From: Paraglaciecola arctica BSs20135
GTDB lineage: Bacteria > Pseudomonadota > Gammaproteobacteria > Enterobacterales > Alteromonadaceae
Assembly (NCBI RefSeq): GCF_000314995.1
Contig: NZ_BAEO01000062.1
Span: 124,001 to 188,000 of the forward strand
DNA: 64,000 bases
Reading direction: 5' to 3'
Positions 34,702 to 48,625 of this stretch are shown here, piece after piece. Each line of letters starts with the position of its first letter. Position 1 is the first letter of the stretch. The translations under genes and the position numbers were made by a program. Below the pieces are notes generated by a model. That model saw only the letters and a program-made list of their open reading frames with translations. It searched no databases and had not been told where the DNA came from.

Positions 34702-37700
34702 ATGTTTAAAACGAAACCGCAAATCGCCGCTGTACCTCGACTTAACTGGCTAAGATTACACCTCTTTAGTTTTACCTTAATTGTCATGATTGGTTTGGCT
34801 TGGCCTCATGCAAGTTATGCTCAAGTTGCCACCTGCCCAGGTCCGCCACCTTTGACGACTACTGATTCAGATAGTGATGGGTACGACGACAATATTGATG
34901 TTTTCCCATCCGATCCTCTTCGTCATTACGACTATGACATGGATGGCATCAGTAATTACGACGAAGATGATGATGATGGTGATGGTGTACTCGACATAAA
35001 TGACAATAATCTAGATGCCGACACTGTTATCAATTTCTATGACCCTTTCCCCGAAGATCCTCTTGAGTGGCTAGACACTGATGGGGATTGCCTTGGTAAC
35101 AATGCGGATATGGATGACGATAACGATGGTTATGCTGATACCGTTGATCCTTTTCCTTTAGATGCCTCTGAGTGGGAAGACACTGACAGTGATTTGATAG
35201 GTAACAACTCTGACTCTGATGATGATAACGATGGTGTAATTGATTTATATGATGATTTGCCTACAGACCCTAATGAACAAACCGATACCGATCACGATGG
35301 CATTGGTAATAATACTGATGAAGACGATGATAATGATGGTGTTGACGATATAGATGATGCTTTTCCGTTACTCGCTACTGAAACATTAGACACAGATAAT
35401 GATGGTATTGGAGACAATGCCGATCCTGACAACGATGGTGATGGTGTAGTTGACGCCAATGATATCTGGCCAGATGATCCAGATGAATGGTTCGATAATG
35501 ATGGTGACATGATTGGAGATAATGAAGACACCGATGACGACAATGATGGCTTTGCAGATAGTGTTGATGCATTTAGGACCGACCCTGCTGAAAATTTAGA
35601 TACTGATGGTGATGGTGTCGGTAACAATGCCGACAGTGATGATGACGGTGATGGGGTAAGTGACAGTAATGACAGATTCCCTCTCGACCCATCAGAGTAT
35701 ATTGATACTGATGGTGACGGCACCGGTAATAACGCGGATTCCGATGATGACGGTGATGGAGTGGAAGATGGTATTGATAAATTTCCACTTGATAGAACTG
35801 AATACTTAGATACAGATGGCGATGGTATTGGTAACAATGCAGACACCGACGACGATGGTGATGGCGTAGCCGATAGTATTGATCCTGAACCTCTTAATAT
35901 GGCCGAAGATACCGACACCGATGGGGATGGTGTCGGCAACATTACCGATACTGATGATGATGGAGATGGTGTAACCGATGGCTTTGATGCTTTCCCTTTA
36001 AATAAAGATGAATGGGACGACACTGATGGAGATGGCTTAGGTAATAACTTAAGTGATGCCGATGATGATAATGATGGTATAGCTGACTCTGCGGACGCCT
36101 TTCCCTTAGATAGTAATGAATGGCTTGATACAGATAATGACGGTACAGGTAATAACGCAGACACTGATGATGACGGAGACGGCACCATCGATAGCATCGA
36201 TGCTTTTCCACTTAATTCTACTGAATCTAAAGATACCGACGGTGATGGTATAGGTGACAACGCCGATAGTGACGACGACAATGACTCTTTTATTGATATC
36301 AATGATGATTTTCCGTTAGACCAATTTGAATGGTTAGATACAGACGGCGACACCGTCGGCAATAATGCTGACAACGATGATGATAATGACGGCATTAAAG
36401 ACTCATTAGATATATTCCCACTAAATGACGCTGAATCAGTCGACACAGATGTTGATGGCATTGGTAATAATGCAGATAGTGACGATGATAATGATGGCTC
36501 AATAGATGCTGATGATGTGTTTCCCCTTGATAGATCAGAATGGCTAGACACCGACCTTGATGGCATCGGAAATAATTTGGATACCGACGATGATAACGAC
36601 GGAGTGACAGATAATCTGGATTTATTCCCTTTAGACAGTTCTGAGTGGCAAGACTCAGATGCTGATGGAACGGGGAACAATGCGGATAGCGACGATGATA
36701 ATGATGGCGTTAGTGACACCGATGATGCCTTTCCACTTGATCCTGTTGAAACTACCGACACGGATTTAGACGGTATTGGCAATGTATTGGATAACGATGA
36801 TGACGGCGACGGCGTACTAGATTATTTGGATGAAAGGCCGCTTGATCCTTTAGAGTCACTAGACAGTGATGACGATGGTATAGGTAATAACATTGATCTC
36901 GATGATGACAATGATGGCATGAGTGATGAGTATGAAGACACTTATGGTTTTGATTCCTTGGATCCAGCAGACGCTTTACTCGATAGTGATTTGGATGGTG
37001 TGATTAACATTGATGAAGCTCATGACGGCAGTAATCCTTTTATCGATGATTACCCCCCAGAGATTGATGTTCCGCAATCGCTGCACCTGAACGCTGAACA
37101 TATTTTCACAACTCTTACTGAAGACGCTTTAGTGGCGGCGACAAATATTTCTGCTAATGACGGCTTAGATGGAGATGATTGTTGTAGTCTGAGGCCCGTC
37201 GGTTTTGAAAGTGGTGTGCAGGTATTAACGTCTGGGCAATATCCGATTACATGGCGTGCTGTTGATAATGCTGGCAATATTGCTTACAAAGAGCAAATAA
37301 TTAACCTTTATCCCTTAGTTAATTTTGAAGCCGATCAGACTGTTGCAGAGGGGAGCACAGCAAGGGTAAAAGTTGTCTTATCTGGCAGCGCTCCCAATTA
37401 TCCTTTTAAGATCCCCGTTGCAGTAGTTGGGAATGTCGACTCTTTTGACTACAGCATTGATAATGAATTTGTGGTGATTGAAAGCGGCACTATTGGTTAT
37501 ATCAACATTAAATTGAATGAAGATTTTCAAACTGAAGGTGATGAACTACTTATTCTTGAATTTGATGATGGGTTGAATGTGGGCTCGCAGAGAACTCATA
37601 CTATTACCGTAAGTGAAGATAATTTAGCGCCTAATTTGAGTGTGGCGGTAACACAACAAAACGTGGTGTTATCGAATGTTGCTAAAGATGACGGTGATAT

Positions 37701-38703
37701 TAAGCTAACTTTGCAGATTGACGATTCTAATCCAGATGATACACATATTATTGAGTGGACTATTCCTTCAGAGTATCAAACACAAATTAGTGCCAATCAG
37801 ATGGTGGCGGTCATTAACCCTAGTAACTTAACTTTACCAAGCACTAATAGTGATATTTTGTCTTTGTCGGTGGAAGTTACCGACAGTGGTGAGGGAACAT
37901 TAGTGACCACAAAAATCATCAATATAGCAATCTTGGCGACTCAACCTACATTAACTAACAGTGATGTTGATCGAGACGGATTAACCGATAAGGAAGAAGG
38001 TTTTGTGGACCAGGACCTAGATGGTCTGCCAGCATTTATGGATACATCAGATGTCAGTTATATTCAGCCTAAACATGTTAATTCTGCCATTACTAAGTTT
38101 GTCGAAACTGAACCTGGTTTAGAACTATCACTGGGGAAATATGCAAGATTACAACAGTCAGACGGTGTGATGTTGTCCGAGCAAGAAATTCAAGCAACGG
38201 GGTTGGTTGCCGCTGATGACCTTAGCCATCAAGATGAGTATTTCGATTTTGAAATTAATAATATTTTACCATTAGGTAGCTCGGTGGATATCGTTTTACC
38301 TTTGCAACACAGTCTTCCTGAGTTTGCTACTTATAGAAAATATACAGATGCACAGGGCTGGCAATATTTTGTGGAAGATGCGAGTAACAGCTTAGCGTCA
38401 ACTGTATCTGTTAACGATGTATGCCCGCCGCCTAATAGCAGTAAGTACTCAACAGGGTTGAATCAAGGTGATGATTGTGTGCGTTTAACCATTAAAGACG
38501 GTGGTCCCAATGATGCTGACGGCATAGAAAATGGAACTATTGATGATCCCGGTGGCATAGCTGTGCAGACTGTAAATGAAATCGTCAAAAACCTTGATCC
38601 AGAAACAAGCACTAGTGGAGGTGCGTTTAGTCTAAACCTTGGGTTGCTAATAATGTTGTTTGGATGGCGCAGTATTATAGGTCGTTCTATTAACCTAAAA
38701 TAA
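34702..38703 (+). CDS. Large thrombospondin type 3 repeat protein with C-terminal sorting tail
   Basis: 1333 residues. Signal peptide (about 14-40); about 19 acidic thrombospondin type 3 units (roughly 53-760) of the form DTDGDGIGNNADSDDDNDG with FPLD linkers, which should bind many Ca ions; an HYR-like segment (about 780-870); a Calx-beta-like segment (875-975); a choice-of-anchor U-like domain (about 1130-1300: YRKYTDAQGWQ, IKDGGPNDADG); then a GG-containing C-terminal hydrophobic segment (SGGAFSLNLGLLIML) and basic end resembling GlyGly-CTERM. Probably a surface-displayed or released calcium-stabilised stalk. The domain calls beyond the repeats are by eye. Confidence 0.9.
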   Translation: MFKTKPQIAAVPRLNWLRLHLFSFTLIVMIGLAWPHASYAQVATCPGPPPLTTTDSDSDGYDDNIDVFPSDPLRHYDYDMDGISNYDEDDDDGDGVLDINDNNLDADTVINFYDPFPEDPLEWLDTDGDCLGNNADMDDDNDGYADTVDPFPLDASEWEDTDSDLIGNNSDSDDDNDGVIDLYDDLPTDPNEQTDTDHDGIGNNTDEDDDNDGVDDIDDAFPLLATETLDTDNDGIGDNADPDNDGDGVVDANDIWPDDPDEWFDNDGDMIGDNEDTDDDNDGFADSVDAFRTDPAENLDTDGDGVGNNADSDDDGDGVSDSNDRFPLDPSEYIDTDGDGTGNNADSDDDGDGVEDGIDKFPLDRTEYLDTDGDGIGNNADTDDDGDGVADSIDPEPLNMAEDTDTDGDGVGNITDTDDDGDGVTDGFDAFPLNKDEWDDTDGDGLGNNLSDADDDNDGIADSADAFPLDSNEWLDTDNDGTGNNADTDDDGDGTIDSIDAFPLNSTESKDTDGDGIGDNADSDDDNDSFIDINDDFPLDQFEWLDTDGDTVGNNADNDDDNDGIKDSLDIFPLNDAESVDTDVDGIGNNADSDDDNDGSIDADDVFPLDRSEWLDTDLDGIGNNLDTDDDNDGVTDNLDLFPLDSSEWQDSDADGTGNNADSDDDNDGVSDTDDAFPLDPVETTDTDLDGIGNVLDNDDDGDGVLDYLDERPLDPLESLDSDDDGIGNNIDLDDDNDGMSDEYEDTYGFDSLDPADALLDSDLDGVINIDEAHDGSNPFIDDYPPEIDVPQSLHLNAEHIFTTLTEDALVAATNISANDGLDGDDCCSLRPVGFESGVQVLTSGQYPITWRAVDNAGNIAYKEQIINLYPLVNFEADQTVAEGSTARVKVVLSGSAPNYPFKIPVAVVGNVDSFDYSIDNEFVVIESGTIGYINIKLNEDFQTEGDELLILEFDDGLNVGSQRTHTITVSEDNLAPNLSVAVTQQNVVLSNVAKDDGDIKLTLQIDDSNPDDTHIIEWTIPSEYQTQISANQMVAVINPSNLTLPSTNSDILSLSVEVTDSGEGTLVTTKIINIAILATQPTLTNSDVDRDGLTDKEEGFVDQDLDGLPAFMDTSDVSYIQPKHVNSAITKFVETEPGLELSLGKYARLQQSDGVMLSEQEIQATGLVAADDLSHQDEYFDFEINNILPLGSSVDIVLPLQHSLPEFATYRKYTDAQGWQYFVEDASNSLASTVSVNDVCPPPNSSKYSTGLNQGDDCVRLTIKDGGPNDADGIENGTIDDPGGIAVQTVNEIVKNLDPETSTSGGAFSLNLGLLIMLFGWRSIIGRSINLK

Positions 38704-40508: not shown

Positions 40509-40640
40509 TTATTTTTGCGCGCGGCTACAACGTTTGGAACAGTGTTTTACTTCATCCCAGTTCCTTTCCCACTTTTTTCGCCAATTAAACGAGCGGTTGC
40601 ACATTAAACATACCTTACTGGGAAGCTCAGACTTTTTCAT
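40509..40640 (-). CDS. DUF2256 zinc-finger-like small protein
   Basis: 43 residues. Two cysteine pairs (VCLMC and HCSKRC) around NWRKKWERNWDEV are the signature of DUF2256. The ATG lies inside the end of the FeS photolyase gene (14-bp overlap), so they are co-translated. DUF2256 genes are commonly seen next to photolyase/cryptochrome genes; the function is unknown. Confidence 0.88.
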   Translation of the reverse strand: MKKSELPSKVCLMCNRSFNWRKKWERNWDEVKHCSKRCSRAQK

Positions 40641-42165
40641 ATGTGTCTAAAGTTTGGAGAAATATTTGGCTGTCCCGTTGGATAATTTGACGTTTCTCGT
40701 CAGTCATTTTGTTGAGTGTGCGGTAGGGCATGCCTAAACGTGGGTTGTTGCCTAGTTTTTCTTTATTTCTGTCTAAAAAATCCCAATATAAATAATTGAA
40801 AGGACAGGCTTGTGAGCCATTTTTGTCTTTGACTTTGTAGTGGCAACTTTTGCAATAATTGGACATTTTGTTGATATAGCTGCCGCTGGCGGCATAAGGT
40901 TTACTAGCCAGTAGGCCGCCATCAGCAAATAGGATCATGCCGGTGACATTGGGCATTTCGACCCATTCATAAGCGTCGGCGTAGACAATTAAATACCATT
41001 CGTTGACTTCATCAGGATGCAGGCCAGCTAATAAGGCAAAGTTACCTAATATCATTAAGCGCTGGATATGATGGGCATAAGCGTTTTCTGAGGTTTCTTT
41101 GATGCACTGATGTAGGCAGTTCATTTTGGTGTTGGCGTCCCAAAAGAATTTAGGTAGCGAACGTGTGGCTTCGAGAAAATTTTCGTTTTTATAGTCAGGC
41201 ATTTTTAGCCAATACAAACCGCGAACATACTCACGCCAGCCTAATACTTGGCGAATAAAACCTTCCACTGCGTTTAGCGGCGCATCGCCATTTCGGTAGG
41301 CATTTTCGGCCTGTTCAATGACTTCTTTAGGTGTTAACAAACCGCAGTTTAAGTAAAAACTAATGTGCGAGTGATACATCCAAGGTTGACCTTGCACCAT
41401 AGCGTCTTGGTAATCGCCAAAGTTAACCAAGCGCTGGGAGATAAATTCATCTAACACCACTAAGGCTTGCTCTCGGGTCACAGCAAAGTGAAAGTTTTCC
41501 AGTTGCCCAAAGTGATCGTCAAATTCTTTTGCTACTAACTCCAGCACTTCTTGGGTGATGGCATCGGTTTCGAATTTTGTGGGTTGTGGCGGTGACATTT
41601 CTTTAGGTAAAGCTTTACGGTTAGCGCTATCAAAATTCCATTTATCACCTACAGGCTTGTCGCCATCCATCAAAAAATGCCATGCTTTGCGCATTTCGCG
41701 ATAGAAAAACTCCATGCGTAATTGTTTACGCCCTTGTGCCCAAGAGGCAAATTCTTCTAGACTAGCCAAAAAGCGATCGTCTTGGCGAATTTCTACCGCT
41801 ATGTTTAACTTTTCTTGCCAACTCTGCATCTCTACTAAAACACGATACTCACCTGGGTGAGTGAGTATAATTTTGTCGATATTTTTCTGTTCACACAACC
41901 GTTTCACTTCGCCAAACAAACTGCCTTTGTTGTCTTTACCGTCATATTTTGTATAGACCAGTTGATGGCCTTTGCCGGTTAATTCATTGGCAAAATGGCG
42001 CATGGCCGAGAATAAAAAGGCAATTTTCTTTTTATGATGTTTAACGTAGTTGGCTTCTTCACGCACTTCGACCATTAACAGCCAGTCGTTGTCTAATTCG
42101 CAATCCTTTAGGCTGGCTAAGTCATGGCTGAGTTGATCAGCTAAAATTAATCTTAAAGTACTCAT
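40627..42165 (-). CDS. FeS-BCP type (6-4) photolyase/cryptochrome
   Basis: 512 residues. The N-terminal LRLILADQLSHDL and the C-terminal half with MILGNFALLAGLHPDEVNEW and four cysteines (CLHQC near residue 350, CKSCH and CPF near 440-455) mark the iron-sulfur bacterial cryptochrome/photolyase clade. These repair (6-4) photoproducts using FAD and a lumazine-type antenna with a 4Fe-4S cluster. Its start overlaps the upstream phrB stop (ATGA) and its end overlaps DUF2256: a tight three-gene operon. Confidence 0.93.
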   Translation of the reverse strand: MSTLRLILADQLSHDLASLKDCELDNDWLLMVEVREEANYVKHHKKKIAFLFSAMRHFANELTGKGHQLVYTKYDGKDNKGSLFGEVKRLCEQKNIDKIILTHPGEYRVLVEMQSWQEKLNIAVEIRQDDRFLASLEEFASWAQGRKQLRMEFFYREMRKAWHFLMDGDKPVGDKWNFDSANRKALPKEMSPPQPTKFETDAITQEVLELVAKEFDDHFGQLENFHFAVTREQALVVLDEFISQRLVNFGDYQDAMVQGQPWMYHSHISFYLNCGLLTPKEVIEQAENAYRNGDAPLNAVEGFIRQVLGWREYVRGLYWLKMPDYKNENFLEATRSLPKFFWDANTKMNCLHQCIKETSENAYAHHIQRLMILGNFALLAGLHPDEVNEWYLIVYADAYEWVEMPNVTGMILFADGGLLASKPYAASGSYINKMSNYCKSCHYKVKDKNGSQACPFNYLYWDFLDRNKEKLGNNPRLGMPYRTLNKMTDEKRQIIQRDSQIFLQTLDTYEKV

Positions 42166-43622
42166 GACGACGCTGGTGTTTCGTTTGGTTGTTGTTTTGA
42201 CTGGGCTAAAGCATCAAGGGCGCGCAAGCGTGAGGCTTTTAAATCAACCAAGGGTTTAGGGTAGTTATCACCTAGTTTTACCCCTGCATAATCCAGAATA
42301 TTTTGCGGTGCATCCCATGGATTATGAATAAACTTGTCTGGCATTTTACTCAACTCAGGACAGTAACGTTTTACATAGTCACCGTGCACATCAAAACGTT
42401 GTCCCTGCGTTACTGGGTTAAAAATTCTAAAGTAAGGAGAAGCATCAGCACCGGTCCCCGCAACCCATTGCCAGCTTGCACTGTTTGCGGCTAAGTCGGC
42501 ATCTAACAAACAATCCCAAAACCAACGTTCGCCTTTGCGCCAGTCGATTAATAGATTTTTAACTAAAAACGAAGCGACCACCATACGTACTCGATTATGC
42601 ATAGTGCCTGTTTGCCAGAGTTCGCGCATACCTGCGTCCACAATGGGAATGCCGGTTTGACCAAGTTGCCAAGCCTTAAGTGAATCTTCATCATTGCGCC
42701 AAATAAAATGTTCAAACTTAGGGCTGAAGTTTTTTTGTGGAATGTGCGGGAAATGAAACAACAAATAATGAGAAAACTCCCGCCAGCCTAATTCACTTAA
42801 ATAACAATCTAGGCCTATATCTTCGGTATTGCCGTTAAGGGCATTAATGCCCGCATACCAAATTTGATTCGGCGATATTTCACCAAAGTGTAGGTGCGGT
42901 GATAATTTAGAAGTGGCACCTAGTTCGGGAAAATCTCGTTTGTTTTTATACTCTTTGGCCCCGTCAGGTAAAAATTCGCTGAGGTGTTGAGCTGCGCCTT
43001 TTTCACCCGGCGTCCACATAGTTTGTATAGTGCTATGCCAACTTATTTCAGGCATGAGTTCTAGTGAATCTATGCCATTATCAATTTCAGAATAATATTC
43101 AATTTGCAGATCTTTGGGGGCCGCAACAGGCATTCTGGGTGATGATTTGGACAAACACCCGCGGCGGTAATAAGGCGTAAACACTTTATATGGGGTCTGA
43201 TCCTTTTTTAATACTTGCCAAGGTTCCCATAATAAATGGCTGTTAAAGCTTTGCACCTCTATTCCAGCTGCAACTAATGTTTGTTTCAGTTGGGTGTCGC
43301 GTTTTATTTGCCATGGCTCATAAGCCCGGTTCCAGGCTATGCGTTTTATGTCATGCTTTTGCATTAACCCGATTAATAACTTACTAGCATCGCCTTTGAT
43401 GCAGTGTAATTGATTATCTAATGAATCATTTAAAGCATTTAGTGACTGATGTAGCCACCATTTACTGGCTCCACCCGGTACACAATGTTCGGGGCAAGCA
43501 GTATCAAAAATAAACACAGGGATCACTGAGTCTAGCTTTGCGGCAAAGGCTAATGCTGGGTTGTCTCGTAAGCGAAGATCTTGACGGAACCAAACTAAAG
43601 TTGAGTCGGTGATAAAAATCAC
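42162..43622 (-). CDS. phrB: Deoxyribodipyrimidine photolyase
   Basis: Light-driven repair of cyclobutane pyrimidine dimers. 486 residues: antenna domain (LVWFRQDLRLRDNPAL) and FAD domain (SELGWREFSHYLLFHFP, GIPIVDAGMRELWQTG, HNRVRMVVASFLVKNLLIDW, WQWVAGTGADASPYFRIFNP), all canonical. First gene of the phrB - FeS photolyase - DUF2256 operon, divergent from the DUF2805/ovoA group. Confidence 0.96.
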   Translation of the reverse strand: MIFITDSTLVWFRQDLRLRDNPALAFAAKLDSVIPVFIFDTACPEHCVPGGASKWWLHQSLNALNDSLDNQLHCIKGDASKLLIGLMQKHDIKRIAWNRAYEPWQIKRDTQLKQTLVAAGIEVQSFNSHLLWEPWQVLKKDQTPYKVFTPYYRRGCLSKSSPRMPVAAPKDLQIEYYSEIDNGIDSLELMPEISWHSTIQTMWTPGEKGAAQHLSEFLPDGAKEYKNKRDFPELGATSKLSPHLHFGEISPNQIWYAGINALNGNTEDIGLDCYLSELGWREFSHYLLFHFPHIPQKNFSPKFEHFIWRNDEDSLKAWQLGQTGIPIVDAGMRELWQTGTMHNRVRMVVASFLVKNLLIDWRKGERWFWDCLLDADLAANSASWQWVAGTGADASPYFRIFNPVTQGQRFDVHGDYVKRYCPELSKMPDKFIHNPWDAPQNILDYAGVKLGDNYPKPLVDLKASRLRALDALAQSKQQPNETPASS

Positions 43623-43738
43623 TCCAAAAATTAACTAAATAGTTTAAGTAATACTAACAAATGAGGTTTCTAGATCTAATATTCATGAATATTAATTATT
43701 AAGTGAACCTATTATTTCATTTATTCGTAATCCCGAGT

Positions 43739-44014
43739 ATGAATAAGAATGAATACACTTTTAATACAGCAGAAAAATCACGCATTGTCGAAATGGATTG
43801 GGAGGATAGAACCCCTTATGAAGCTATTGAAGGCTTGTTTGGGATTAACTCCAATCAGCTAATTGACTTGATGCGCAATGAGCTGAAAATTGGGTCGTTC
43901 AAGGTTTGGCGTAAACGTATGCGAGGCAGGCAAACCAAACACCTTAGTCTAAGACCACAAGGTATATTGCGCGGATATTGTAAAACTCAATATAAACATA
44001 GCCGAGGAAAATAA
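43739..44014 (+). CDS. DUF2805 (TIGR03643) family protein
   Basis: 91 residues from the ATG at 43739; the longer frame from 43703 adds a hydrophobic stretch with no ribosome site. MDWEDRTPYEAIEGLFG and FKVWRKRMRGRQTKHLSLR are the family signature, with a likely helix-turn-helix in the first half. The family is commonly encoded beside photolyases. Ends 6 bp before the ligase-like gene. Confidence 0.85.
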   Translation: MNKNEYTFNTAEKSRIVEMDWEDRTPYEAIEGLFGINSNQLIDLMRNELKIGSFKVWRKRMRGRQTKHLSLRPQGILRGYCKTQYKHSRGK

Positions 44015-44020
44015 GGTTGA

Positions 44021-45193
44021 TTGTTGTTGTTTGAGCCTTACACTAAACAAAATTTCAGTTCACCAAGTGTCCATCAAAAATTTATGTTGATCCAAGATGT
44101 TATCCAACACTTACTGAATATACTTGAAGCCAAAGGGTTTAAACCCTTTGTGCATTTCGAGTTGGAGGGTGTGTGTGAATTACACGCTAAGCAACAAAGG
44201 CTCGATTATCAAAGTATCAATAAAAAATTAGCGCAACTCGGAATAGACGGTGAATTAAAGTCCGAATATTGGAAAAATCAATGGGAATTTGTATCCTTAT
44301 TTAATGGCCAGTCACCATTAAAAGAAGCACAAAACCTAGCCAAAGCGATGCAGCTGTTACCCCAAATCATGTGTCAGTATGGGGCATCTAAAGTCATGAT
44401 GGTACCTGTTGCTTGGGGAGCGGATAAAGGGAGGTATGTGTTTGGATCGGGTGCAATATTTTCATTGGATACTCGGTCTGTACATATTCCTAATGCGATC
44501 CAAATGAATGTCAGTGTTGAAAACCAGCACGGCGAAAATTTATTTGCGCAACAAGGATTAGGAGAGTGGATCCAGTATGAGTTGTTGAGCAATAGTTATG
44601 CTTGTTGCCTATTGTTTTTACCCGAGGAAGATGCCTTTAAACGTTTAACTTTACGTCAAGACTATGGATTGGACGCAGAGTTGAGTTCACCGGTTTTATT
44701 GTCTGGTGGCCATCAAGGCAGCATTGCTTTGTACAAAGAAAAAGGCAAACACAATCAGGTTATGGGTTTAGAACCATTATTTTTTGCTACTGATAATTCA
44801 GTATTGCATTACACAGGTGATTGGCGAAAAACTGCGCGAGTAGAGCATAGAATTGGCGCAACCAGTAAAAATTATGATCCTTATTTGAATATGCTGTTTA
44901 TTCTTATTAATGTGCTTGAAGGGATCGGCAAATGGCAAACTAACAAAACCTTACCAAATTTTGTGGATAAAGCATTACCCGTGTCGTTGTACGATCAACA
45001 GCACAACCAAAATGAGAGTCATCAAAGTGCGCAACAAAACTTAGGTGCACTATCTTTATTTAAAAACGATATGTGGTTGGTAAATAAAATAGATTATTAC
45101 TGTGAAGATATGCCCAATCTGAGTGGAATAAATTTGGGTGTGAAAATTAAGGAAATGGTTCTGAGTAAATATCAGAGATCGTTTATTACGTAA
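44021..45193 (+). CDS. Glutamine-synthetase-fold ligase of unknown substrate
   Basis: 390 residues, TTG start after GAGGAAA. Two parts recall the glutamine synthetase catalytic domain: NQWEFVSLFNGQSPLKEAQN near residue 87 (compare GQxE followed by the helix before MxKP) and RVEHRIGATSKNYDPYLNML near residue 285 (compare RxExRxPD-NPYL). VMMVPVAWG stands where MPKP is expected. A divergent ATP-dependent amide ligase is inferred. It lies between DUF2805 and ovoA on the same strand, so it may act on ovothiol, histidine or glutamyl compounds; nothing in the sequence proves this. Confidence 0.6.
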   Translation: MLLFEPYTKQNFSSPSVHQKFMLIQDVIQHLLNILEAKGFKPFVHFELEGVCELHAKQQRLDYQSINKKLAQLGIDGELKSEYWKNQWEFVSLFNGQSPLKEAQNLAKAMQLLPQIMCQYGASKVMMVPVAWGADKGRYVFGSGAIFSLDTRSVHIPNAIQMNVSVENQHGENLFAQQGLGEWIQYELLSNSYACCLLFLPEEDAFKRLTLRQDYGLDAELSSPVLLSGGHQGSIALYKEKGKHNQVMGLEPLFFATDNSVLHYTGDWRKTARVEHRIGATSKNYDPYLNMLFILINVLEGIGKWQTNKTLPNFVDKALPVSLYDQQHNQNESHQSAQQNLGALSLFKNDMWLVNKIDYYCEDMPNLSGINLGVKIKEMVLSKYQRSFIT

Positions 45194-45296: not shown

Positions 45297-47411
45297 TTGC
45301 TAAAACAAAAATCACTCATATTAGACAAGCCACCGTTATTAATTGGCAATGATGTTGAACAAAAAAGAGTCGAGCTCAAAACCTATTTTGAGCAAACGTG
45401 GGAGCTTTACGAATCGCTCTTTTCGTTAATTAATCAAGACGAAGCTTTCTACTTGCGTCCAGAATCATTGCGTCATCCACTCATTTTTTATTATGGTCAC
45501 ACGGCTGTTTTTTATATTAATAAGTTACTGTTGGGCAAATTTATACAAAACCGAGTGAATAACCAAATCGAGTCTGTTTGTGCTGTGGGTGTGGATGAAA
45601 TGTCTTGGGATGACCTTTCAGCGGATAATTATCAATGGCCAAGTGTTGAGGCCGTATCTGAATATCGCGATCAAGTGAAAGCATGTATCTTGGATTTGAT
45701 TGACAAGATGCCGCTTAGCTTACCTATTACTCAAGATTCCTTGGCTTGGGTGATCCTTATGGGTTGTGAGCATGAGCGTATTCACATTGAAACATCGTCG
45801 GTTATCATGCGTATGCTTGATAGCGATTATTTAACCTCATCTAACTCATGGAAAAACTGCCCTGATATAGACAATGCACCTAACAATACTTTATTAAGCG
45901 TTGCGGGTCAGTCATTAGTCTTGGGTAAGCCAGATTCCAATCCGACTTATGGCTGGGATAATGAATATGGGCAATTACACCTTGAGGTGAGTGATTTTAC
46001 TGCCTCGCAATATCTAGTTTCTAACCAAGAGTTTATGCAATTTATTGATGCTGGTGGCTATCACACACCTAGCTATTGGACCGAAGAAGGACAAAGTTGG
46101 CTAGATTTTACTAAAGCACAGATGCCACGTTTTTGGCGACGTAAAAACGGTGCATACTGGCAACGAAATCTTACTGAAGAAATGCCCCTGCCGTTGAATT
46201 GGCCTGTCGAAGTTAATTACCTTGAAGCCAAGGCTTTTTGTAATTGGAAGGACAGCATTAGTGATGATTATGTTCGCTTGCCTACCGAAGCTGAATGGCA
46301 AGTACTCCGTGACCAACTCGACACAGACTTAGCCGATTGGAAAGAAGCCCCAGGTAACATTAATTTAGAACATTTTGCTTCGTCATGCCCAGTGAATAAA
46401 TTCAAACAAACTGAATTTTATGACGTGATTGGCAATGTATGGCAATGGACCGAAAGCCCCATAGATGGCTACGAGGGTTTTAAAGTACATCCGCTATATG
46501 ATGATTTTTCAACACCTACTTTTGATGGGCAGCATAATCTAATCAAGGGTGGGAGCTGGATATCCACAGGCAACGAAGCCACCCGTGATTCTCGCTATGC
46601 GTTTCGTCGCCATTTTCACCAACATGCTGGATTTCGTTATGTTTCGAGTAAACATCAGGAAGTACCTATTACTCCAGTCACAAAATGTGAGATGCAAACT
46701 GATATTAGCCGTTTATTACATCATCACTTTGCTGCGGCTAGTTACCAAACCGAGCATGATTTGCAGCAACTCCTTAACTTACTGCAACCCTATGTGACAT
46801 CTAGCAGTAAAGTACTCGATTTAGGTTGCGGGGCAGGGCGTTTGGCGTTTGAATTAGCTAAAACTGCCGGTCATGTTGATGGTATAGATTTTACTGCAAG
46901 ACATATTCAGCATTGTCTTAACTTAAAAGAGCAGGGGCAATTACGTTACGCTATGCCTACTCAGGGCGAAATTTTCGATTTTCATGAAGTGACACTAGAG
47001 GATTTGGGTTTTGCACAATCACCTGAAAACTTACATTATGCACAAGGTGACGGACATAACCTAAAACCGCAGTTTAATGATTACGACTTAGCAATTTGTC
47101 ATCGTGTTATCGAATACAGTTATCACCCAGAAGTGTTGTTACAACAACTTAGCCAAAGAGTAAAAGCGGGTGGGCTAGTGGTTTTAGGTAGCAGTTATAC
47201 GTGGAACCCATCTATTACCGATAATAAACATTGGATCGGCGGGTTTAAACGTAATGGTGAAAACCTTAGTAGTGAAGCTCATTTGTTTGAAATCATGTCT
47301 GAAGAATTTGACTTGTTACAAGAAACCCAAGTCACCAGCCAATTTGAATTGGATCAACGTACTAGCCAAACCGCTAACAACCATATTACTATCTGGCGCA
47401 AACGAAACTAA
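45297..47411 (+). CDS. ovoA: OvoA: 5-histidylcysteine sulfoxide synthase / 4-mercaptohistidine N-methyltransferase
   Basis: Bifunctional ovothiol enzyme, 704 residues, TTG start after GGAAAG. N-terminal DinB-like iron domain (His in YYGHTAVFY and the CEHERIHIE triad, about residues 60-170), formylglycine-enzyme-like domain (200-455: LPTEAEWQVLRDQ, GNVWQWTESP, GGSWISTG, FRRHFHQHAGFRY) and a C-terminal SAM methyltransferase (VLDLGCGAGRLAFELA, about 505-700). It couples cysteine to histidine C5 with O2 and later methylates 5-thiohistidine. The lyase OvoB is not recognisable nearby. Confidence 0.95.
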   Translation: MLKQKSLILDKPPLLIGNDVEQKRVELKTYFEQTWELYESLFSLINQDEAFYLRPESLRHPLIFYYGHTAVFYINKLLLGKFIQNRVNNQIESVCAVGVDEMSWDDLSADNYQWPSVEAVSEYRDQVKACILDLIDKMPLSLPITQDSLAWVILMGCEHERIHIETSSVIMRMLDSDYLTSSNSWKNCPDIDNAPNNTLLSVAGQSLVLGKPDSNPTYGWDNEYGQLHLEVSDFTASQYLVSNQEFMQFIDAGGYHTPSYWTEEGQSWLDFTKAQMPRFWRRKNGAYWQRNLTEEMPLPLNWPVEVNYLEAKAFCNWKDSISDDYVRLPTEAEWQVLRDQLDTDLADWKEAPGNINLEHFASSCPVNKFKQTEFYDVIGNVWQWTESPIDGYEGFKVHPLYDDFSTPTFDGQHNLIKGGSWISTGNEATRDSRYAFRRHFHQHAGFRYVSSKHQEVPITPVTKCEMQTDISRLLHHHFAAASYQTEHDLQQLLNLLQPYVTSSSKVLDLGCGAGRLAFELAKTAGHVDGIDFTARHIQHCLNLKEQGQLRYAMPTQGEIFDFHEVTLEDLGFAQSPENLHYAQGDGHNLKPQFNDYDLAICHRVIEYSYHPEVLLQQLSQRVKAGGLVVLGSSYTWNPSITDNKHWIGGFKRNGENLSSEAHLFEIMSEEFDLLQETQVTSQFELDQRTSQTANNHITIWRKRN

Positions 47412-47428: not shown

Positions 47429-48625
47429 TTGAGTAAAAAAATTGTTATTGCAGGTGCAGGTATTGGTGGTTTGTGTGCCGCGTTAGCATTGGTTAGACGT
47501 GGATTTGAAGTGGCTGTTTATGAACAAAGCCCACAACTTGGCGAAGTGGGCGCTGGCCTACAACTCAGCCCCAATGCAATGCATGTATTGCAAGCATTGG
47601 ATGTAGCTGACCAAGTTAAAGCTAAGGCGTTTCGCCCCAAATCTGCTGTGATGCGTCATTATCAAACGGGAAAAACTTATTTTACTGTGCCTTTGAGTGA
47701 CACTGCTACTCAAAAATATGCTGCTGATTATTTGCATATACATCGCGCCGATTTACATTCAATACTGCTAAATGCATGTGAAAAACAGAAAGTAAGTATT
47801 CACTTAGATCAAGCCGTTCAAGGTTACCAGCAGAATGCACAAGGCCTCACAATTCAACTTGAAAGTGGCACAAGCCTAGTCGCTGATTTGTTAATAGGTG
47901 CTGATGGTATAAAGTCACAAGTGCAAGCCTGTATGTTAGGGCAAACACCAGCTCAATTTACGGGGCAGGTTGCATGGCGCGGAGTGGTTGCAGCCAACAA
48001 ACTGCCCAAAGGGCTTATTAAACCCAATGCCAATTTATGGGTAGGGCCAGGTAAACATTTTGTTAGTTATTACTTACGTGGCGGCGATTTAGTAAATTTT
48101 GTCGCTGTGCAAGAACGCACTGATTGGCAAAAAGAATCTTGGAACGAGCCAGGTAATATCAACGAATTGCGAGATACCTTCGATGGCTGGCATCCTGAAG
48201 TTACTGAATTATTAGCCGCATCAGAGCAATGTTTTTTATGGGCTTTGTTTGACAGGCCACCTCTTAATCAATGGACAGATCAAAACGTCGCACTTTTGGG
48301 AGATGCTTGTCACCCCATGTTGCCATTTTTAGCCCAAGGTGCTGCTATGGCAATAGAGGATAGTTATGCTTTGGCGCATTATTTGGCGACTGAAAATGAC
48401 ACCTCAACCGCTCTAAAAGCCTATCAAGATCTACGTTTAAGTCGCACTAGTGAAATTCAATTAGGTGCGCGCAAAAACGCGAGTTTGTATCATATGAGTT
48501 CACCCATTGAGCAGGCTAAATTAACGGTGTTATCGGGATTATCCAGTATTGGGCTAAGCGATAGATTGGCCGCGAATAAACTGGATCCTATTTATGCTTA
48601 TAATATTGTTGAGCAGTTAAATTAA
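47429..48625 (+). CDS. FAD-dependent aromatic-ring-type monooxygenase
   Basis: 398 residues, TTG start 18 bp after ovoA. Rossmann motif GAGIGGLCAALALVRRG at the N-terminus, the central ADLLIGADGIKSQVQ (DG motif) and GDACHPMLPFLAQGAAMAIED, as in salicylate hydroxylase-like flavoproteins. Substrate unknown. Its position just after ovoA suggests co-expression with ovothiol synthesis, though such enzymes are widespread. Confidence 0.88.
   Translation: MSKKIVIAGAGIGGLCAALALVRRGFEVAVYEQSPQLGEVGAGLQLSPNAMHVLQALDVADQVKAKAFRPKSAVMRHYQTGKTYFTVPLSDTATQKYAADYLHIHRADLHSILLNACEKQKVSIHLDQAVQGYQQNAQGLTIQLESGTSLVADLLIGADGIKSQVQACMLGQTPAQFTGQVAWRGVVAANKLPKGLIKPNANLWVGPGKHFVSYYLRGGDLVNFVAVQERTDWQKESWNEPGNINELRDTFDGWHPEVTELLAASEQCFLWALFDRPPLNQWTDQNVALLGDACHPMLPFLAQGAAMAIEDSYALAHYLATENDTSTALKAYQDLRLSRTSEIQLGARKNASLYHMSSPIEQAKLTVLSGLSSIGLSDRLAANKLDPIYAYNIVEQLN

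Follow-up and report, generated by a model that had tools for sequence, protein, structure and literature searches.

Ovothiol is a marine antioxidant whose synthesis is started by OvoA. A precedent for an accessory enzyme is 5THNAT, an acetyltransferase encoded adjacent to ovoA, which acetylates the α-amine of 5-thiohistidine, not of ovothiol (Liao et al. 2025; PMC12631010). It is sometimes encoded with an OvoA lacking the methyltransferase, and N-acetylation renders the compound anionic, likely raising its metal affinity and thiolate nucleophilicity (PMC12631010). Apart from 5THNAT, no enzyme but OvoA is known to recognize a 5-thiohistidine derivative, and finding such enzymes was considered a prerequisite for understanding the role of 5-thiohistidine compounds (PMC12631010). 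An earlier note on the DNA analyzed here stated that ovothiol pathways are known with OvoA and OvoB only; this is out of date, since an ovoA-linked 5-thiohistidine N-acetyltransferase was published in 2025 (PMC12631010). An amino-acid ligase encoded in a sulfoxide synthase cluster is exemplified by EgtA, a γ-glutamylcysteine ligase acting before the sulfoxide synthase. A further group of related systems comprises γ-glutamylmethylamide synthetase (GmaS), γ-glutamylputrescine synthetase, and 1-naphthylamine glutamine synthetase, which use glutamate and an organic amine as substrates, the chemistry proposed below.

Here, we describe a glutamine synthetase (GS)-superfamily ligase gene of Paraglaciecola, given the working name GSL. 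Like 5THNAT, GSL is a probable accessory enzyme encoded beside ovoA, some of whose OvoA partners are methyltransferase-less, and the α-amine proposed as its target is the same. In contrast, 5THNAT is a GNAT-kind acetyltransferase using acetyl-CoA and occurs mostly in Bacteroidota, whereas GSL would use ATP and occurs mainly in Colwelliaceae and Alteromonadaceae. The window, namely the whole stretch of 64,000 nucleotides from Paraglaciecola arctica BSs20135 that was analyzed, carries the following genes in this order, all on the plus strand:

43703–44014, plus strand: DUF2805/TIGR03643 gene, upstream of GSL; of the 67 GSL loci, the same four have this gene and a photolyase pair, and it is not a general GSL neighbor
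44084–45193, plus strand: GSL, a GS-superfamily ligase gene whose 369-aa product lacks the N-terminal domain of GS; translation probably begins at the ATG at 44084, in a frame open from 44021
45297–47411, plus strand: ovoA, 5-histidylcysteine sulfoxide synthase with a C-terminal methyltransferase; TIGR04344 at 670 bits (cut-off 400), TIGR04345 at 230.5 bits (cut-off 170)
47429–48625, plus strand: FAD-dependent monooxygenase (PF01494), next after ovoA; so placed only in Paraglaciecola among the 67 GSL loci

The earlier note had placed a 390-aa frame on the same strand between the DUF2805 gene and ovoA, and this was borne out. The frame is open from 44021 to 45193 (390 codons), and the two GS-like motifs read in it are present: NQWEF at residues 86–90 and RVEHRIGA...DPYLNM at residues 273–291, with residue numbers counted from 44021. 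The start in close relatives corresponds to residue 22 of this frame, the ATG at 44084, indicating that the shorter, 369-aa protein is more likely. The gap between GSL and ovoA is 103 nt, and the genome holds one copy of GSL. Values of dN/dS were 0.086–0.131 in the six of 21 sequence pairs with computable dS, the 15 others being saturated; GSL is thus a real gene under purifying selection. A promoter and terminator scan gave fewer sites than shuffled sequence and was therefore uninformative. On the opposite strand lie two photolyase-family genes of the DPRP and FAD_binding_7 types (40627–43622, minus strand), which overlap by 4 nt and are divergent from the DUF2805/TIGR03643 gene. Elsewhere in the window, a 1333-aa protein consisting mostly of aspartate-rich repeats of the DxDxDG type (34702–38703, plus strand) is perhaps calcium-binding and exported.

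Next, we analyzed the fold of GSL. Against Pfam, PF00120 was matched only below threshold (E 0.036, 13.6 bits; cut-off 24). The same family was matched by 5 of the 21 sequences of alignment A1 (best E 0.013), and the divergent GSL of locus L083 reached E 0.00055 and 19.5 bits, still under the cut-off. No match to PF03951, the N-terminal β-grasp domain of GS, was obtained at E up to 1. In NCBIfam, the same E limit gave no family for the window protein, and hence no score over the GlnA cut-off. When solved structures were searched by phmmer, GSL found no GS and four chance matches (E 0.44 or worse), and the 21-sequence GSL profile found no GS and two matches (E 1.1 or worse). Thus, the GS fold was visible from structure and profile–profile comparison only. 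AlphaFold2 gave a model with pLDDT 79.2 and pTM 0.83 when supplied with A1, and with pLDDT 92.8 and pTM 0.92 when supplied with alignment A2 (56 sequences). Foldseek matched the GSL model to a GS at E 6e-14. By VIA-align 2, the best match was the GS of Methanosarcina mazei (Z 27.4, rmsd 3.2, 273 residues aligned), and the best 50 matches listed were all GS or GS-like (Z 24.4–27.4); identity between GSL and GS in the structural alignments was 15–21%. GSL is almost certainly a GS-fold ligase, as the earlier note had claimed; a fold unlike GS, named beforehand as the result that would speak against that claim, did not emerge from structure prediction.

The structural alignments also bear on the extent of the protein. 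Residues 1–369 of the A2 model paired with GS chains only from chain residues 89–137 onward; in the first, weaker model, with 21 extra low-confidence N-terminal residues, the ranges began at chain residues 9–48. Since only 25 residues (46 counting from the upstream start) precede the equivalent of GS E129, the GS N-terminal domain cannot be contained in GSL. The model thus depicts GSL as the GS catalytic domain alone.

Active-site residues were paired using a global profile alignment of GSL with 30 GS-family proteins of relatives, and GS residue numbers and roles were assigned to the aligned positions from the established knowledge on GS. Conservation was read from the 56 rows of A2, which come from the window, L015, and 54 GSL loci (of the 67, L024, L026, L031, L034, L035, L038, L039, L042, L044, L050, L058, L059, and L082 were left out). 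The following codons were assigned:

44159–44167, plus strand: E47-L-E49 of the HFELEG strand, equivalents of the GS metal ligands E129 and E131; E49 in all 56 rows, E47 in 55 of 56, the other row having a masked X
44264–44287, plus strand: E82–E89 (EYWKNQWE), equivalents of GS E212 and E220; both in 56 of 56 rows
44483–44515, plus strand: H155–S165 (HIPNAIQMNVS), region of GS H269/H271/S273, from the profile alignment
44642–44644, plus strand: R208, equivalent of GS R321; 56 of 56 rows
44837–44851, plus strand: R273-V-E275-H-R277 (RVEHR), equivalents of GS R355, E357, and R359, from the profile alignment and A2 conservation

E275 (GS E357) and R273 (GS R355) were found in all 56 rows and R277 (GS R359) in 55, the other row having a masked X. 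For the metal site, the residue search that had been suggested earlier was positive: equivalents of five GS glutamates of this site, and of three GS arginines, are kept in the 56 aligned members, except for two masked letters. GS S273 pairs with S165, which is conserved in every A2 row. For the GS metal ligand H269 there are two invariant candidates, H155 in the gapped profile alignment and Q161 in an ungapped reading. GS R339 and R344, the phosphate-binding arginines, pair with Q246 (Q in 53 of 56 rows) and E251 (a variable E/K/T/Q/D site) in a gapped stretch where the alignment is uncertain. At the position of GS E327, 52 of the 56 rows have C or S, the alignment there being likewise uncertain; E220 of GSL, two residues from this position, is conserved, but is K in both Rickettsiales members. 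The loop corresponding to R339/R344/E327 has a well-conserved set of its own, GGHQGS and GKH.

Local profile comparison with hhalign was then conducted between GSL and GS groups, GshA, GCS2, and 11 unrelated families. The probability was 92.8 against six non-GlnA GS-family paralogues, 61.4 against all GS, and 1.5 against GlnA alone, while the unrelated families gave at most 1.1. GshA (PF04262; low-diversity profile) and GCS2 (PF04107; one sequence) gave 0.9 and 0.3, within the range of these controls, and with no Pfam match to either, a glutamate–cysteine ligase is disfavored. No glutamate–cysteine ligase chain was among the structural matches listed, which by itself carries no weight. For EgtA, the comparison with GSL was made through the GshA and GCS2 profiles. 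In single-sequence comparisons, the best five of 67 were all from the non-GlnA set (L121, 87; L124, 77; L120, 67; L123, 22; L094, 5.1), and every GlnA gave at most 2.6, with one control at 2.2; the sixth non-GlnA paralogue, L122, was outside the best 25. Neither L121 nor L120 reaches any NCBIfam cut-off, so that these comparisons place GSL nearer to non-GlnA GS relatives than to GlnA only tentatively. Structural Z-scores do not separate γ-glutamyl-amine ligases from GlnA.

GSL shares with type I GlnA (TIGR00653, PF03951 plus PF00120) the catalytic-domain fold, the metal-site glutamates, and the key arginines; in contrast to GlnA, it has no N-terminal domain, no NCBIfam match, and only a sub-threshold Pfam match. 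The host has a strong separate GS (PF00120, 463.6 bits). The GS-like ligases also share the fold (GmaS, Z 25.3; 1-naphthylamine GS, Z 26.7; 4hpp, Z 25.2), with Z for GmaS/PuuA tied with or below that for GlnA. The N-terminal domain missing from GSL is present in GS-like amine ligases, and the chain numbering in the structural alignments agrees with this.

To survey the gene neighborhoods, one genome per species of 84,980 species was scanned with GSL peptide patterns only, which yielded 67 loci. The records fall in several families of Pseudomonadota, mainly Colwelliaceae and Alteromonadaceae, and include Robiginitomaculum. ovoA adjoins GSL in 65 of the 67 loci, 62 of which have both genes on one strand with GSL first. 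The distance from the last sense codon of GSL to the first possible ovoA start did not exceed 80 nt, or was negative, in 61 of the 62; the exception by called start is L071, where the tblastn match of ovoA begins 53 nt after that of GSL. The order is ovoA then GSL, with few bases between, in two Robiginitomaculum metagenome-assembled genomes (MAGs; L084 and L085), and the two genes are divergent in a MAG filed as Rickettsia typhi (L088). The first of the two loci without an adjoining intact ovoA, L024, lies at the end of a contig, and ovoA is found in this genome at base 13 of a different contig. The second, L087, has the frameshifted first ~100 codons of ovoA (L087:2620–2930) beside an intact-looking GSL, as a result of either genuine decay or a join made in assembly; this 1.4-Mb MAG yielded no intact ovoA. 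Of 21 short loci that partly overlap with the set of 67, 20 show ovoA beside GSL by eye, and the remaining one (L004) corresponds to the contig end of L024. The linkage of GSL to ovoA is thus consistent beyond one lineage, in three gene orders. The earlier note had named homologues never found near ovoA or photolyases as a result against it, and the survey gave the opposite for ovoA; its photolyase link proved local, since photolyases were near GSL in just four loci (L022, L023, L024, and L028), and they were rejected as general partners.

We also analyzed the co-occurrence of the two genes. Of 60 near relatives, including the own genome, 18 had GSL and 23 had an ovoA scoring above the curated cut-off; the order sample of 295 genomes had 9 and 53, respectively. 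All genomes with GSL had ovoA (18 of 18 and 9 of 9; Fisher p 4e-11 and 1e-7, ignoring kinship, the two samples sharing four GSL genomes), whereas ovoA occurred without GSL in 5 of the 23 and 44 of the 53, indicating that GSL implies ovoA, but not the reverse, and that ovothiol itself does not need the ligase. Samples of 369 genomes from the class and 398 from the phylum contained GSL in 2 and 5 genomes, respectively, counting the own genome and near relatives; it is a rare family, although the first pass of this search can miss distant members. GSL had no match in IMG/VR, plasmids, or phages, and the idea of a mobile gene was dropped. A quick tree was built from OvoA rows trimmed to the first 480–500 residues, with 20 ligase-free OvoAs, of which two came from the same-genus species G005 and 18 were taken from the 44 of the order sample. 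The 62 OvoAs with GSL upstream formed one group (SH-aLRT 97), and the 20 ligase-free OvoAs, including both of G005, fell outside it; the OvoA of L088 had a very long branch. As judged from this tree, the ligase appears to track the OvoA lineage within the genus and not the species.

The OvoA partners differ in domain content. Methyltransferase domains were scanned in five OvoAs (window, L083, L084, L085, and L088), and the others were judged by length. The OvoAs of L084, L085, and L088 pass TIGR04344 (656, 662, and 559 bits), but the domain scan found no methyltransferase in them, whereas those of the window and L083 pass TIGR04345. Partner OvoAs of 602–752 aa, leaving room for a methyltransferase, account for 62 of 65. 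After ovoA, 28 of the 67 loci have a class I PLP enzyme gene (PF00155) in the same direction, which overlaps ovoA in 12; the best NCBIfam likeness of the enzyme is to PRK07324, GntC, and VioD, with a weaker one to PatB C-S lyases, and it is a candidate for OvoB. It is absent at that position in the Paraglaciecola loci. Of 20 ovoA loci without the ligase, 7 have a weakly similar protein (22–28% identity) beside ovoA.

Other neighbors were restricted to particular lineages. The FAD monooxygenase directly follows ovoA in 6 of the 67 GSL loci, all Paraglaciecola. In the ligase-free relative L128, a copy 80% identical to a Paraglaciecola one lies directly upstream of an OvoA from another clade. The monooxygenase is probably not a core part of the GSL cluster and may be a separate ovothiol-linked gene. 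In L084 (11147–13313) and L085, ovoA and GSL are followed by a class III aminotransferase and a β-keto acid cleavage enzyme (PF05853), and then by genes that look TonB-receptor-like by eye on the opposite strand; a degradation or metallophore cluster around thiohistidine is possible there. A convergent gene of 375–391 aa recurs beside ovoA in the ligase-free L125, L126, L128, L132, L133, and L139, and is ADP-ribosylglycohydrolase-like by eye in L125 and L128. In another ligase-free relative (L142, genome G279), ovoA is split into frames of 521 and 195 aa, with the sulfoxide synthase and methyltransferase apart.

Taken with its neighborhood, GSL very probably works in the 5-thiohistidine pathway, and the linkage to ovoA makes unlikely the unrelated amide that the earlier note had allowed as a product. 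We propose, at a little under even chances, that GSL is an ATP-dependent amide-bond ligase serving as a tailoring enzyme that γ-glutamylates 5-thiohistidine or ovothiol. In this scheme, OvoA would couple cysteine to histidine, and a PLP β-lyase would free 5-thiohistidine. GSL would then activate a carboxylate, most likely the γ-carboxylate of glutamate, as an acyl phosphate and transfer the acyl group to the α-amine of 5-thiohistidine (or ovothiol), which would give a γ-glutamyl conjugate. The GS N-terminal domain helps close the ammonia site of the neighboring subunit, and its absence would make space for a bulky amine. The acceptor is probably 5-thiohistidine or ovothiol. The three OvoA partners without a methyltransferase keep GSL, indicating that N-methylation is not needed by the ligase, which points to 5-thiohistidine; the room for a methyltransferase in most partners means that ovothiol A could be the acceptor instead. 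A γ-glutamyl donor, with glutamate as its source, is slightly favored. Counted against this proposal were GS R339 and R344, which seem to have no conserved equivalents in the alignment, the C or S at the position of GS E327, the uncertain H269, the many ovoA genomes without the ligase, and the paralogue L122, which on its own bears no notable profile likeness to GSL.

The linkage tells the pathway and not the bond, and the altered loop around R339/R344/E327 would also suit another chemistry in the same pathway, in which a different donor is joined to 5-thiohistidine, or the carboxylate of 5-thiohistidine or ovothiol is activated and joined to an amine or ammonia. We consider this rather unlikely: GSL retains the equivalents of R321 and R359, which in GS bind the donor glutamate, and 5-thiohistidine has no side-chain carboxylate to replace that of glutamate. 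Alternatively, GSL could feed OvoA by making γ-glutamylcysteine, or another modified amino acid, as its substrate. The position upstream of ovoA in 62 of 67 loci would fit such a role, as would the precedent of EgtA in the egt cluster, which resembles a γ-glutamylcysteine ligase (PMC9103826). However, a strong preference for cysteine over γ-glutamylcysteine is reported for a characterized OvoA, that of Erwinia (PMC9103826), and the host genome already has GshA, so that the γ-glutamylcysteine role is less likely. Furthermore, none of the recurrent neighbors at GSL loci stood out as an EgtC-like amidohydrolase, and the GSL profile has no likeness to the low-diversity GshA or one-sequence GCS2 profiles; we regard a feeding role as improbable.

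Lastly, GSL might be a neighbor without a catalytic role in the pathway, such as a pseudo-enzyme, a sensor of the nitrogen or thiol state, or an unrelated-amide ligase. Ten Colwellia loci have genes after ovoA that look PII-like and ammonium-transporter-like by eye, as a nitrogen sensor might lead one to expect. Nevertheless, the metal-site glutamates are invariant, the linkage persists across the three gene orders and in lineages lacking nitrogen genes nearby, and the ligase follows the OvoA clade instead of the species; we consider a non-catalytic neighbor very improbable.

Searches of open-access full texts turned up no account of a GS-like ligase beside ovoA. The fold is known, whereas GSL as a family, its lack of the N-terminal domain, and its constant association with ovoA appear to be new. 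GSL is a second candidate, mechanistically different from 5THNAT, for an enzyme acting on a 5-thiohistidine derivative. It is present in cultured sea bacteria (Colwellia, Thalassotalea, and Paraglaciecola strains), and substrates for testing it already exist. We put forward only tentatively, as somewhat doubtful, that the cluster makes a new low-molecular-weight thiol, γ-glutamyl-5-thiohistidine (or γ-glutamyl-ovothiol), through a new family of the GS superfamily that would have lost the N-terminal domain to accommodate a bulky amine. If true, this would be a glutathione-like dipeptide in which mercaptohistidine replaces cysteine. There may be a new thiol to seek in sea bacteria, along with a ligase of the GS superfamily that has a new acceptor and no N-terminal domain, and GSL hints at a new small protective molecule.
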